64,000 nucleotides of DNA, from the NCBI RefSeq assembly GCF_001428505.1, contig NZ_LMHU01000008.1, positions 1-64,000 on the forward strand, written 5' to 3'. A program made the translations under genes and the position numbers. Within the stretch, counting starts at the first letter, position 1; the number at the start of each line of letters is the position of its first letter. This DNA is from Terrabacter sp. Root181 (GTDB lineage Bacteria; Actinomycetota; Actinomycetes; Actinomycetales; Dermatophilaceae). The notes under the pieces are model-generated. The model did not search any database. It worked only from the letters and a program-made list of their open reading frames with translations, and was not told where the DNA came from. Positions 2,532 through 48,204 of the stretch are shown piece after piece.

Positions 2532-5741
<3,210 letters not shown>

Positions 5742-40584: not shown

Positions 40585-44180
<3,596 letters not shown>

Positions 44181-44194
44181 CGTGGACGAGTCTA
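44181..44194 (-). promoter_or_regulatory. Leaderless-type -10 of dnaE
   Basis: TAGACT (44194-44189), 8 bases, ATG of dnaE; the same hexamer and spacing as in front of hisD. Confidence 0.5.
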
Positions 44195-44246
44195 AGCCTC
44201 CGCGAGGACACTCCTCGGCGTGTCGGTGCGGGTGTCGCGGGGTCCG

Positions 44247-44278
44247 CGCGAACCGATCCGGCGCGAGCGGTGTTGAGG
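44247..44278 (+). promoter_or_regulatory. ECF-type promoter of the sigma factor gene
   Basis: CGCGAACC (44247-44254) and AGCGGTGTTGAGG (44266-44278) are both repeated identically, with the same distance, in front of the gene at 45750. Read as -35 GAACC and -10 TGTTGA with a 16-base spacer, the pair fits ECF promoter geometry. The -10 ends 33 bases before the sigma factor ATG. This implies autoregulation. Confidence 0.72.
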
Positions 44279-44309
44279 GGGCGTCGGGACGGCACGATGG
44301 TGCCGAGGC

Positions 44310-44882
44310 ATGGTCGTCGGTGGGACGGAGGCAGCGATCGACACGTCCGAGGAGGCGGCAGCACTGGCGCGCGTACGCGCGGGGGACGCGTCGGCGTACG
44401 CGGTGCTCGTCACGCTCCACGCCCCGATCGCCAAACGGCTCGCGGTGCTCTCCGGCGCCGGGAGCGAGGCCGACGACGTCGTGCAGGAGGCGTTCGTGAA
44501 GGCATACCAGGCACTGCCGCGCTTCCACGAGGGCGCGGGTTTCCGTCCGTGGCTGCTGCGGATCGTCGTCAACGAGACACGCAACCTGCAGCGCGGGCGG
44601 TCACGGCGCGCCCTGCGCGAGCTCCGGGTGGCCGCGGAGAGGGCCGTGACGCACGCCGTCCCGGACCCGGCGGACGCCGCGGTCTCGCGCGACCGGCTCG
44701 ACGGGCTCATCGACGCGGTCGAGGGGCTGCCCGACGACCTGCGCGACGTAGTGACCTGCCGCTACCTGCTCGAGCTGTCGGAGGCCGAGACCGCCGGGAC
44801 GCTCGACATCCCGGCGGGCACGGTCAAGTCCCGGCTCCATCGCGCCCTCGGCTCGCTCCGGGAGGTGATGGCCGATGCCTGA
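44310..44882 (+). CDS. ECF-type RNA polymerase sigma factor
   Basis: 190-residue group IV sigma factor. Region 2 is recognisable (AYAVLVTLHAPIAKRLAVLS, then DVVQEAFVKAYQALPRF with the DxVQE -10-binding helix), with WLLRIVVNETRN following. Region 4 ends the protein (LPDDLRDVVTCRYLLELSEAETAGTLDIPAGTVKSRLHRAL). It starts at ATG 44310. It overlaps the next gene by 8 bases, and a duplicated promoter motif links it to the third gene of the cluster. I infer that it responds to an envelope signal held back by the membrane protein behind it. Confidence 0.92.
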   Translation: MVVGGTEAAIDTSEEAAALARVRAGDASAYAVLVTLHAPIAKRLAVLSGAGSEADDVVQEAFVKAYQALPRFHEGAGFRPWLLRIVVNETRNLQRGRSRRALRELRVAAERAVTHAVPDPADAAVSRDRLDGLIDAVEGLPDDLRDVVTCRYLLELSEAETAGTLDIPAGTVKSRLHRALGSLREVMADA

Positions 44883-45672
44883 CCACCTCGACCTCGAGGA
44901 CGAGCTCGTCGCCCTCGGCCGCACGCTTGTGACCGAGCCGCCCGGAGCGGATCTCGCGACGCTCGTGCTCGCCCGCCTGGACGCCGAGCCGCCACCCGTG
45001 CCGCAGCGTGAGGCCGTGGCGCCGGTCCCCGCCGCCCCACGCCCGACGCGCGTCATGACCCACCGACTCGGGTGGGCAGCGGCCGCCGTCGTCGTGCTCG
45101 TGCTCGCTCTCGTCCCGCCGGTCCGTGCCGCGGTCGTCGAGCTGCTCCGCATCGGCGGCATCGTGGTGCGGGAGGTGCCCACACCGGCCCCGACTCCCTC
45201 GACGACGTCTCGGGCGACCGGCACGAGCACCAGTGGTGCTCCGGCGACGCCCGTGACGCTGGGGCAGGCAGAGCACCTCGTCGGCGCGGACATCGGGGCG
45301 CCCACGGCGCTCGGCCCGCCGACGTCCGTCACCGTCACGCACGACGGGCGCGTCGCCGAGCTGGTGTGGGGGCCGGGCGCCGGCACGACGCGTCTCGACG
45401 TGTTCGTCGGCTCGTTGTCGTGGGGCTACCTCAAGACGGTGTGGGAGGCGGTCACGCCGACCACGGTGGCCGACCACGAGGCGGTGTGGCTCGGGTCGCC
45501 GCACCTCGTCGAGTGGGTGGACCGGGTCGGCGGCACGCACTCCGAGCCGCCGCGCCTCGCCGGGCCGACCCTCGTCTGGGTCGTCCCGTCCCCGGCCGGC
45601 GACGTGACCTACCGCCTCGAGGGTGTGGACACCCTCACCGAGGCGCTGCGCGTGGCCCGGTCCGCCGGCTGA
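44875..45672 (+). CDS. Putative transmembrane anti-sigma factor
   Basis: 265 residues: an acidic cytoplasmic part (1-62, DLEDELVALGRTL), one membrane helix (about 65-83, GWAAAAVVVLVLALVPPV), a Pro/Ser/Thr linker and an extracytoplasmic domain of about 150 residues, which includes WGPGAGTTRLDVFVGS. No zinc anti-sigma HxxxCxxC motif is present. The assignment rests on the layout and on the 8-base overlap with the sigma gene; the ectodomain may be the sensor. Confidence 0.65.
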   Translation: MPDHLDLEDELVALGRTLVTEPPGADLATLVLARLDAEPPPVPQREAVAPVPAAPRPTRVMTHRLGWAAAAVVVLVLALVPPVRAAVVELLRIGGIVVREVPTPAPTPSTTSRATGTSTSGAPATPVTLGQAEHLVGADIGAPTALGPPTSVTVTHDGRVAELVWGPGAGTTRLDVFVGSLSWGYLKTVWEAVTPTTVADHEAVWLGSPHLVEWVDRVGGTHSEPPRLAGPTLVWVVPSPAGDVTYRLEGVDTLTEALRVARSAG

Positions 45673-45673
45673 C

Positions 45674-45705
45674 CGCGAACCTCCACTTCCGCAGCGGTGT
45701 TGAGG
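45674..45705 (+). promoter_or_regulatory. Second copy of the ECF-type promoter, before the secreted-protein gene
   Basis: CGCGAACC (45674-45681), 11 bases, AGCGGTGTTGAGG (45693-45705), the same layout as at 44247-44278; a following CGTCGG is also shared. It begins 2 bases after the anti-sigma stop and ends 44 bases before the next start codon. Confidence 0.72.
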
Positions 45706-45749
45706 TGTCGTCGGCCCGTGCGCCGGCCCACTCGCCCACGGAGGAGAAC

Positions 45750-46496
45750 ATGCGCAGACTCGCCCCCCTCGCCGCCGCCGCAGCCGTCGCCGCGGCCCTG
45801 CTCGTCGCCGTCGCCCCGCAGGCCTCCGCCGGAGGCCCGACCTCGGTCCTCGCCGTCAACTACAGCGGGTCTCGCGCCGCGGCCGCCCTGACCGGAGGCA
45901 CGGCCTACGCGAACCTCGAGAAGGCCCTCGACGCGTACAACACCCCCACCGGTGACGCGATGCCCGCGGCCTCGTTCATGGACTCGCAGGTCCGGCTGAC
46001 GTGGCTGATCCACGACGTCACGCCGTGGCGCGTCGACGCCGTCCTCGTCGACGGCGACGACGTCTGGGTCGAGACGTCGATGAACCTCGCCGACGGCAAG
46101 GACCTCTTCCAGGCGCCCGCCGTGCTGCACCGACCCAAGGACGCCGCGCTGCTCCTCGCGACGCTGACCTCCCTCGGCGTCTACGGCGACGCGAAGCCGG
46201 CGAGGACGTCGACGACCCCGCCGGTCGCACGACCTGCGGCAGCTGCCCCGGTCGCGGCGCCGGTGACGCGCGGCACCGGTGACGCCGTGCCCCCGGGTGG
46301 AGTGCCGTGGTGGGCGACGACCGTCGCCGCGGTGGTCGCCCTCGGGCTGGGGATCGCCCTCGGACGGCGGCCACGAGCAGACTCCGGCGCCGGAACCGCC
46401 ACTGACACGCGGCCGCTCGGCCCGGAACGCACCGCCCCGGTCGGGTTCAGCACCGACCCCACGCCGCCAGGCGGCATACGGAATGGCTCGCCGTGA
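45750..46496 (+). CDS. Secreted, membrane-anchored protein of unknown function (ECF module)
   Basis: 248 residues, no family recognised. Signal peptide 1-27 (Ala/Val-rich, ending PQASAGG); an extracytoplasmic domain of about 110 residues with NYSGSRAAAALTGGTAY and two tryptophan-containing stretches; a Pro/Ala/Thr linker; a C-terminal helix (VPWWATTVAAVVALGLGIAL) followed by a basic, cytoplasm-type tail. The GGAGGAG ribosome binding site fixes ATG 45750. It has its own copy of the sigma gene promoter, so it is the likely target of that sigma factor. It might be an accessory part of the sensor instead. Confidence 0.75.
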   Translation: MRRLAPLAAAAAVAAALLVAVAPQASAGGPTSVLAVNYSGSRAAAALTGGTAYANLEKALDAYNTPTGDAMPAASFMDSQVRLTWLIHDVTPWRVDAVLVDGDDVWVETSMNLADGKDLFQAPAVLHRPKDAALLLATLTSLGVYGDAKPARTSTTPPVARPAAAAPVAAPVTRGTGDAVPPGGVPWWATTVAAVVALGLGIALGRRPRADSGAGTATDTRPLGPERTAPVGFSTDPTPPGGIRNGSP

Positions 46497-46527
46497 CCTT
46501 CACCCTCGCGTCGAGGGTGAAGGTCAC
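46493..46527. terminator. Bidirectional terminator containing both stop codons
   Basis: Perfect 15-base arms (46493-46507 and 46513-46527), 5-base loop. The plus-strand stop (46494-46496) lies in one arm and the minus-strand RluD stop (46526-46524) in the other. Confidence 0.75.
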
Positions 46528-47456
46528 AAGGTCGCGATGATGTCGAGTGCGCGCTGGAGGTCCTCCGGATAGGGGCTCTCGAAGCGGACGTACTCCCCCG
46601 TGCCCGGGTGCTCGAAGCCGAGTCCCACGGCGTGCAGCCACTGACGATCCAGCTTGAGGCGTGCCGCGAGCTTCGGGTCCGCCCCGTAGGTCGGGTCGCC
46701 GCAGCACGGGTGGTGCAACGCCGCGAAGTGGACGCGGATCTGGTGGGTGCGCCCGGTCTCGAGATGGATGTCGAGCAGGCTCGCGTAGCGGAACGCCTCG
46801 AGGACCTCGTAGTGCGTCACCGACGGCTTGCCGCTCTTCATCACCGCGAACTTGTAGTCGTGGCCCGGGTGGCGACCGATCGGGGCGTCGACGGTGCCGA
46901 CGACCGGGTCGGGTAGGCCCTGGACGAGGGCGTGGTACGTCTTGTCGACCGTGCGGCTGCGGAACGCCTGCTTGAGACGCGAGTAGGCGTTCTCGCTCTT
47001 CGCGACCACCATGAGACCGGACGTGCCGACGTCGAGCCGGCTGACGATCCCCTGGCGCTCCGGGGCGCCGGAGGTCGAGATGCGGTAGCCCGCCGCGGCG
47101 AGCCCGGACACGACGTCGGGCCCGCTCCAGCCGACGCTGGGGTGCGCGGCGACGCCCACCGGCTTGTCGACGACCACGATGTCGTCGTCGTCGTGGATGA
47201 TCGACATGCCCGGCACGGGCTGTGCGACGACCCTCAGGCTCGGGCCCTCCTCGGCACGCGGCAGCGACACCTCGAGCATCGAGCCGGCCGAGAGCCGCTC
47301 GGACTTCGCGACGGCCTTGCCGTCGAGCACGACGGCGCCGTCTGCCGCGAGGTCGGCGGCCTTGGTGCGGGACACCCCGAAGAGCCGCGCGACGCCCGCG
47401 TCGACGCGTTCGCCCTCGAGGCCGTCCGGCACGAGCACGGTGCGCACGTCAGGCAT
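46524..47456 (-). CDS. RluD-type pseudouridine synthase
   Basis: 310 residues: an N-terminal S4 RNA-binding domain (about 10-75, [20 protein letters not shown]), then the catalytic domain with the active aspartate in [17 protein letters not shown] and [15 protein letters not shown]. The usual VHRLD reads VSRLD here; the aspartate itself is kept. The position behind lspA is standard in actinobacteria. It probably modifies 23S rRNA, but the site is not provable from sequence. The start overlaps the end of lspA by 8 bases. Confidence 0.93.
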
Positions 47457-48204
47457 GGTCGTCCCCCTGACGCCGCACGGCGTGTTTCTCGCGCGTCTCG
47501 GTCGGGTCGGGCGTCTCGGTCGACACGGCCGACCCGCCGGGCTGCTGCGTCATGTCGGTCTCGCCGTTCGCTGGGCTATCGGACGTGGTCTCTCCGTCGC
47601 CGGCGCTGGGCTCGGACGCGACGGTGCGGGTGGCGGGACGGCCGTGGTCACGGCGACCGTCGACGCCGATCCCGAGCAGCGCCAGGATGACGACGAGCGC
47701 CGCGGCCGAGACGATCCAGATGTCGGCGACGTTGCCGATGAACCAGCGGTTGTAGTCGATGAAGTCCACGACGTGCCCCTGGCCGCCGCCGGGCGGGCGG
47801 ACGAACCGGTCCGTGAGGTTGCCGATCGCGGCGCCGAGCAGCAGCCCGAGCGCGATCGCCCAGGCCCATGACCCGAGCTGGCGGGCGACGACGATGATCG
47901 CGATCAGCACGGCGAGGGCGATGCCCGTCATGACCCACGTGTTGCCCGCGCCGAGCGACAGGGCCGCACCGGGGTTGCCGATGAGCTTGAAACGGATGAA
48001 CTCTCCGACGAAGGGACGCGACTCCCCGTCGGCGAGCACGTCGAGCGCGACCACCTTCGTCAGCTGGTCACTGACGTAGGCGAGGACGGCGACGGCCCCG
48101 AGGACGACGAACATCCGGGTGCGCCGGTCAGTTGTCGGTCGGGTCTCGTCGGCAGGCGTCGAACTCACGGTCTCGGTCGATGTGGTCGATGTAGTGGTGG
48201 ACAC
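47449..48204 (-). CDS. lspA: Lipoprotein signal peptidase
   Basis: Membrane aspartyl protease that removes signal peptides from prolipoproteins. There are four helices; the motif NPGAALSL and the two catalytic aspartates in [10 protein letters not shown] and [10 protein letters not shown]...GNVADIWI are present. A Thr/Ser-rich N-terminus of about 30 residues and a long acidic C-terminal tail flank the core. The start is uncertain: GTG 48204 (251 residues) avoids overlap, while ATG 48276 would overlap the preceding gene by 28 bases; a hairpin (48209-48233 region) lies just before the GTG and no ribosome binding site is clear for either. Confidence 0.92.

Follow-up and report, generated by a model that had tools for sequence, protein, structure and literature searches.

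ECF sigma factor systems of the RpoE-RseA and SigW-RsiW type consist of a sigma factor gene and a co-encoded single-pass membrane partner, expressed from a conserved operon promoter, and this arrangement is likewise found at the locus described here. Promoters of the mycobacterial SigL type carry a GAACC -35 element and a -10 element that contains GTGT. In actinobacteria, the sigma-E/CseA-CseB-CseC system of Streptomyces coelicolor resembles the present locus in that an ECF factor and a surface protein are encoded in the same cluster. According to the available part of PMC6767563, sigma-E sites are formed by a GGAAC-like and a CGTC-like block, with 17-18 bases from AAC to CGTC when counted on the examples listed there, and most ECF factors are said to autoregulate in the accessible portion of PMC3817407.

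The window analysed here is a stretch of 64,000 nucleotides from the 4.94 Mb genome of a soil actinobacterium; among named organisms, Terrabacter strains and one Terracoccus strain are its close relatives. It contains three genes on the + strand (Table 1), flanked by a DNA polymerase III alpha gene (divergent) and a pseudouridine synthase gene (convergent). Judging from sequence comparison, the three very probably constitute an autoregulated ECF circuit with a single additional, dedicated product. The ATG at 45750 is the start of the third ORF, which the mechanical ORF list prolongs upstream. The hairpin that follows, which has a folding energy of -35 kcal/mol (z -6.1) when its flanks are included (46485-46540), is probably a terminator, perhaps for both the third gene and the pseudouridine synthase gene. 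An Rfam search of positions 43000-47600 returned no match.

Table 1. Features of the three-gene locus, in window positions.
Feature	Coordinates	Strand	Remarks
P1, predicted sigma-dependent promoter of the sigma/second-gene operon	44247..44278	+	-35 GAACC 44250-44254; -10 region CGGTGTTGA 44268-44276
ECF sigma factor, 190 aa as listed	44310..44882	+	Pfam PF04542 and PF08281 above cut-off; start codon uncertain
Single-pass membrane protein, 265 aa, probable anti-sigma factor	44875..45672	+	start 8 bases inside the end of the sigma ORF
P2, second promoter copy, 5' of the third gene	45674..45705	+	-35 GAACC 45677-45681; -10 region CGGTGTTGA 45695-45703
Third gene, exported, C-terminally anchored protein, 248 aa	45750..46496	+	signal-peptide-like start; C-terminal hydrophobic segment
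Hairpin with a perfect 16-bp stem, separating the third gene from the convergent pseudouridine synthase gene	46493..46527	+	-35 kcal/mol for 46485-46540 (z -6.1)

The first gene had been proposed to encode an ECF sigma factor, and domain searches agree with this assignment, as the protein reaches 51.8 bits against PF04542 (Sigma70_r2, cut-off 24), 49.2 bits against PF08281 (r4_2, cut-off 25.7) and 79 bits against TIGR02937 (cut-off 42.9). Apart from sigma regions 2 and 4 it has no domain, which is the composition of ECF (group 4) factors, and the group to which it belongs may well already carry an ECF group number. Two narrower assignments were rejected, namely the Streptomyces SigE family TIGR02983 (96 bits, below the cut-off of 141.55) and PRK11922 (106.6, below the cut-off of 204). 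Among PDB entries, the protein scores 46 bits to a SigL chain and 79 bits to each of the sigma-E chains 6jbq and 1or7. As the ATG at 44310 is not conserved (five genus relatives have ACG or CCG at this place), the true start of the sigma factor may sit slightly downstream.

The second gene was initially described as coding for a single-pass membrane protein and overlapping the sigma gene by 8 bases, and both statements are correct for the ORFs at 44310-44882 and 44875-45672. The layout is that of membrane anti-sigma factors: the gene directly follows that of the sigma factor, and its product has one membrane segment and a short cytoplasmic N-terminus. When the start codon nearest to the sigma stop was chosen by script in 36 relatives, the second gene began 8 bases before the end of the sigma stop in 31 of them and 11 bases before it in four, the start being called later in the last one (L116). 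All 36 second proteins have one hydropathy peak. The N-terminus includes a partly conserved ELxxLGR, and the outer domain is better conserved. No Pfam or NCBIfam family, curated anti-sigma domains included, scored above its cut-off with this protein, and the PDB gave no sequence match beyond chance. The second protein is likely an anti-sigma factor, a label that derives from gene order, overlap and topology.

The third gene had been assigned to a signal-peptide protein with a C-terminal anchor and of unrecognised family, a description that holds, with no Pfam or NCBIfam family above cut-off. The protein comprises a signal peptide, a globular domain (about 28-150), an Ala/Pro-rich linker, a hydrophobic segment (about 187-205) and a basic tail. 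Across 41 sequences, including that of the window, the stretch after the signal peptide opens with AGGPTSVL, which hardly varies; further shared elements are TWxxHDvxxWRvD and, beyond it, W, T and H positions. No sequence relative was found in the PDB. A structure model built from a 6-row alignment was useless (mean pLDDT 40.6), and a 14-row model of the domain reached a mean pLDDT of 85.3 and a pTM of 0.82, so that the domain is predicted with good confidence to be small and mixed alpha/beta. Foldseek returned nothing at E 0.001 with this model. In a further structure comparison, the best entry was 4r7r (Z 6.6, rmsd 3.7, 103 residues), a putative lipoprotein of Clostridium perfringens, followed by 4q0y (Z 6.2, rmsd 3.9, 101 residues); at such Z values, the likeness to the model may reflect a common arrangement only.

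The bipartite motif that the initial annotation had reported in duplicate is exact in both copies. P1 and P2 share identical blocks of 8 and 13 bases, separated by an 11-base variable stretch that differs between them; the spacing from GAACC to TGTTGA is 16, as claimed, and CGTCGG follows both copies, at 44282-44287 and 45709-45714. Across the 4.94 Mb host genome, with up to 3 mismatches, this full motif has no copy beyond P1 and P2 (a reversed-pattern control gave 0), so the whole-genome scan yields just these two. As a consensus, the full 32-mer was discarded for being too long, its outer bases not being kept outside the genus. Among wider relatives, conservation is limited to GAACC-N13-CGGTGT, and the outer bases of the 13-mer and CGTCGG thus fall outside the wider consensus.

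Within the genus, nine genomes were compared, the window's own included, and one of them (G002) has a completeness of only 74%. The same six of the nine hold both the second and the third gene. An alignment of upstream regions shows the core GAACC-N12-GCGGTGT[A/T]G before both the sigma gene and the third gene in all six, with flanks and intergenic lengths that vary around it. When genomes were scanned for GAACC-N12-GCGGTGTWG, two exact sites were obtained in each of the six module genomes and none in the three module-less ones (G002 among them), and P1 and P2 are the sole sites common to all six. A separate feature, a 14-base near-palindrome, lies just past the predicted P1 start at 44291-44304; it is perfect (GGCACCATGGTGCC) in L004 and L006, and its GGCAC-ATGG part is kept in the six genus sequences.

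Conservation extends well beyond the genus. A profile search with the third protein in 296 genomes of the class, limited to 9 scored candidates per genome, gave matches in at least 37, including the window's own, and at least 28 others matched at 1e-12 or better. Eight matches with E above 1e-12, spanning only profile positions 131-232 (the linker and membrane part), were left out, as were L053-L057, since the five genus genomes that they duplicate were already in the count. Loci were fetched for 27 of the 28, the exception (G130) starting inside the second gene, and the gene order sigma/second/third is found in all 27. With six loci from the genus and six named ones, they form a set of 39, in which near relatives are included and the loci are not independent. 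In this set, the P1 core, GAACC-N13-CGGTGT, is exact in the 36 operons with an adjacent sigma gene (36/36), and the P2 core is exact in 34 of the 39 loci and has one mismatch in four (L063, L103, L115 and L119). At the remaining one, L107, the 300-base search region holds a four-mismatch site, and an exact site lies farther upstream, between the second and third genes (G128:C1:159755). Among scanned spacings of 6 to 20, only 13 recurs, with spacings 7 and 20 accounting for three single matches; in 3900 mononucleotide-shuffled regions, 1 exact and 14 one-mismatch sites were obtained. The base after the core is mostly A in wider relatives and mostly T in the genus. The motif is kept at orthologous loci across the class, at one spacing. 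Additionally, the sigma factors group in a tree largely by taxonomic family, which favours old conservation over recent transfer.

Three genomes, those of Microlunatus parietis, Kibdelosporangium aridum and a record labelled Rhodococcus rhodnii, carry the third gene without any sigma-like gene within 6 kb. The motif precedes the third gene in all three (with one mismatch in K. aridum), and genome scans place it directly before a sigma/second-gene operon elsewhere in each of them, together with 1 to 4 further sites per genome. Given these cases, a search for the motif by itself can point to the partner genes in further genomes. The record labelled R. rhodnii (L061, JOAA01000003.1, NRRL B-16535) belongs to a genome of 12.4 Mb, with a third gene that closely resembles the one of K. 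aridum (L063); its organism label is probably wrong. As for the initial proposal of a duplicated ECF promoter, it is supported by the fixed spacing across the class, by the position before these particular genes and by the presence of the motif in both places when the genes lie apart.

The size of the regulon was also considered. In the window genome, the 11-base core has three exact sites, P1, P2 and L199, the last with no look-alike in eight genus relatives. For L199 and two sites with one mismatch (L050 and L051), no called coding frame covers the position, and they may be minor targets. Further core sites number 1 to 4 in each of the six module genomes and 1 to 3 in each of the three module-less ones; one of them looks alike, by eye, in two genomes (G007 C2 and G008 C15). 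A wider regulon in the genus was rejected, as no further site is common to all six module genomes. Two one-mismatch sites are present in all nine genomes, with or without the module, and at the places checked (L048, L052 and L049) they fall within coding sequence, in genes that presumably resemble a D-Ala-D-Ala carboxypeptidase and a gyrB-type gene. The handful of hits upstream of envelope genes that had been predicted is not seen in the genus, where the module genomes share just P1 and P2. Outside it, two or three sites were found in 14 of the 15 f38 genomes searched and one site in the other. Eight genomes of genus g71 have 1 to 11 wider-motif sites each; several of the shared ones lie within genes, next to tRNA-like sequence or at what is likely a ribosome-binding site, and were left out of the targets. 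As the sites inside genes illustrate, an exact match alone is no proof of a promoter. In two g71 genomes (L157 and L165), the promoter pattern lies 30-50 bases before a homologous putative lipoprotein gene, whose product we take to resemble sugar dehydrogenases. This gene is likely a further target, so that in g71 the factor may act beyond the module; the regulon is, then, not everywhere limited to it.

These observations strongly support, at the level of sequence, the promoter logic of the module, and the motif would be read by the module's own sigma factor. In the circuit that we propose, the co-translated single-pass membrane protein would hold the sigma factor until a cue, presumably extracytoplasmic, frees it. 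The freed factor would then raise its own operon from P1, renewing its inhibitor as well, and would transcribe the third gene from P2, perhaps also by read-through from P1. The product of the third gene would be exported and anchored by its C-terminal helix, with its small globular domain outside the membrane, and would presumably act at the cell surface. An autoregulated envelope response with the surface protein as its main output had been predicted from the start. We infer the autoregulation and the dedicated target; the words "envelope" and "main output" stand on weaker ground, the latter because the third protein might instead serve in sensing or feedback.

Indeed, instead of being an effector, the third protein might belong to the signalling apparatus, binding the outer domain of the membrane protein in order to sense, damp or time the response, a reading to which we give slightly less than even chances. 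It would agree with the fact that the only sites common to the six genus module genomes precede the operon and the third gene, and with the co-occurrence of both proteins, as every genome with a third-gene match at 1e-12 or better (at least 28 in the class, and the three in which the genes lie apart) also has the second gene at 1e-12. Both are, moreover, membrane proteins with an outer domain, and the available part of PMC6767563 mentions a comparable role suggested for CseA, from the sigE operon of S. coelicolor. By contrast, third genes far from the sigma operon, as in the three genomes mentioned, and the tandem third-gene pairs of both Microlunatus genomes (L060 6058-7086 and L062 6082-7178) fit a product that is needed in quantity. 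Overall, a protective product is about as likely as a feedback or co-sensing part. More tentative still is a more specific idea, in which anchored extracytoplasmic partners that close a feedback on the anti-sigma factor form a family spread over the class, and the third protein is the first of them to be recognised. If it were true, the circuit would sense, report and reset itself, with a regulon limited to two promoters in many genomes.

As the recognition of P1 and P2 by the sigma factor is deduced from sequence comparison, the motifs could in principle be the operator of a different regulator that controls both genes, which we consider very unlikely. An ECF promoter would account for the sequence of the blocks, their single fixed spacing and the unvarying way in which they face the gene, and -35 boxes of the GGAAC type are usual for ECF factors in the parts of PMC8103513 and PMC6767563 available. 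Furthermore, the motif accompanies this sigma subfamily across the class, also where the third gene lies elsewhere. GGAACC-N13-CGGTGTA was found in 72 of the 296 class genomes. In a by-eye comparison, the 41 genomes with the second gene at 1e-12 (the window's own excluded) had at least one site in 34 cases and at least two in 28, and the remaining 254 had at least one in 38 and at least two in four. The motif is missing from ten operons with related sigma and second genes: in 10 of the 13 genomes that have the second gene and no match to the third, there was no site near the operon with up to one mismatch. As for the other three, only P1 occurs in G268; in G243, both promoters are accompanied by fragments resembling the third gene, which the first profile search had missed; and G248 has both promoters with an unrelated putative lipoprotein behind P2 (L195, about 3736-4301). 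In a quick tree of the sigma factors, the motif-bearing ones are strongly clustered (2 label changes, against 19.3 in shuffles) and nine of the ten motif-less ones fall in one group (SH-aLRT 89), in a topology with no backbone resolution, several long branches and an outgroup split across sides; a single origin of the motif-bearing factors is possible. The notion that the likeness of P1 and P2 is due to chance or to a recent local duplication without function, which the existence of just two genomic copies might suggest, can be set aside with near certainty, since shuffling excludes chance (no match with up to 3 mismatches in 100 dinucleotide shuffles of the window) and the variable stretches differ, yet both cores are kept across many families.

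The autoregulated ECF circuit proposed above assigns a well-delimited promoter to a sigma subfamily of actinobacteria that is so far uncharacterised, and ties it to two families without a Pfam or NCBIfam model. It would also be a very compact natural circuit, testable as a whole and made up of a sigma factor, a likely inhibitor, a surface protein and two like promoters. Circuits of this type are already known; what appears new is the conserved two-promoter module with its two unnamed protein families, of which we met no description in the literature searched, a body of work that does not cover the main ECF classification. Among described promoters, the mycobacterial SigL ones are alike in their GAACC -35 and GTGT -10 elements, and the window sigma factor scores lower to SigL than to the sigma-E chains. 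A promoter of the S. coelicolor sigma-E type was rejected, as the module has GAACC-N13-CGGTGT, with 14 bases from AAC to CGGTGT, when compared with the sites in the available part of PMC6767563. Within the same part of that source, the sigE locus lacks an anti-sigma factor, and sigma-E does not act on the sigE promoter, unlike what is proposed for the module described here. Finally, in comparison with the RpoE-RseA and SigW-RsiW type, the module adds an exact copy of the promoter before the gene of a third protein, exported and anchored.
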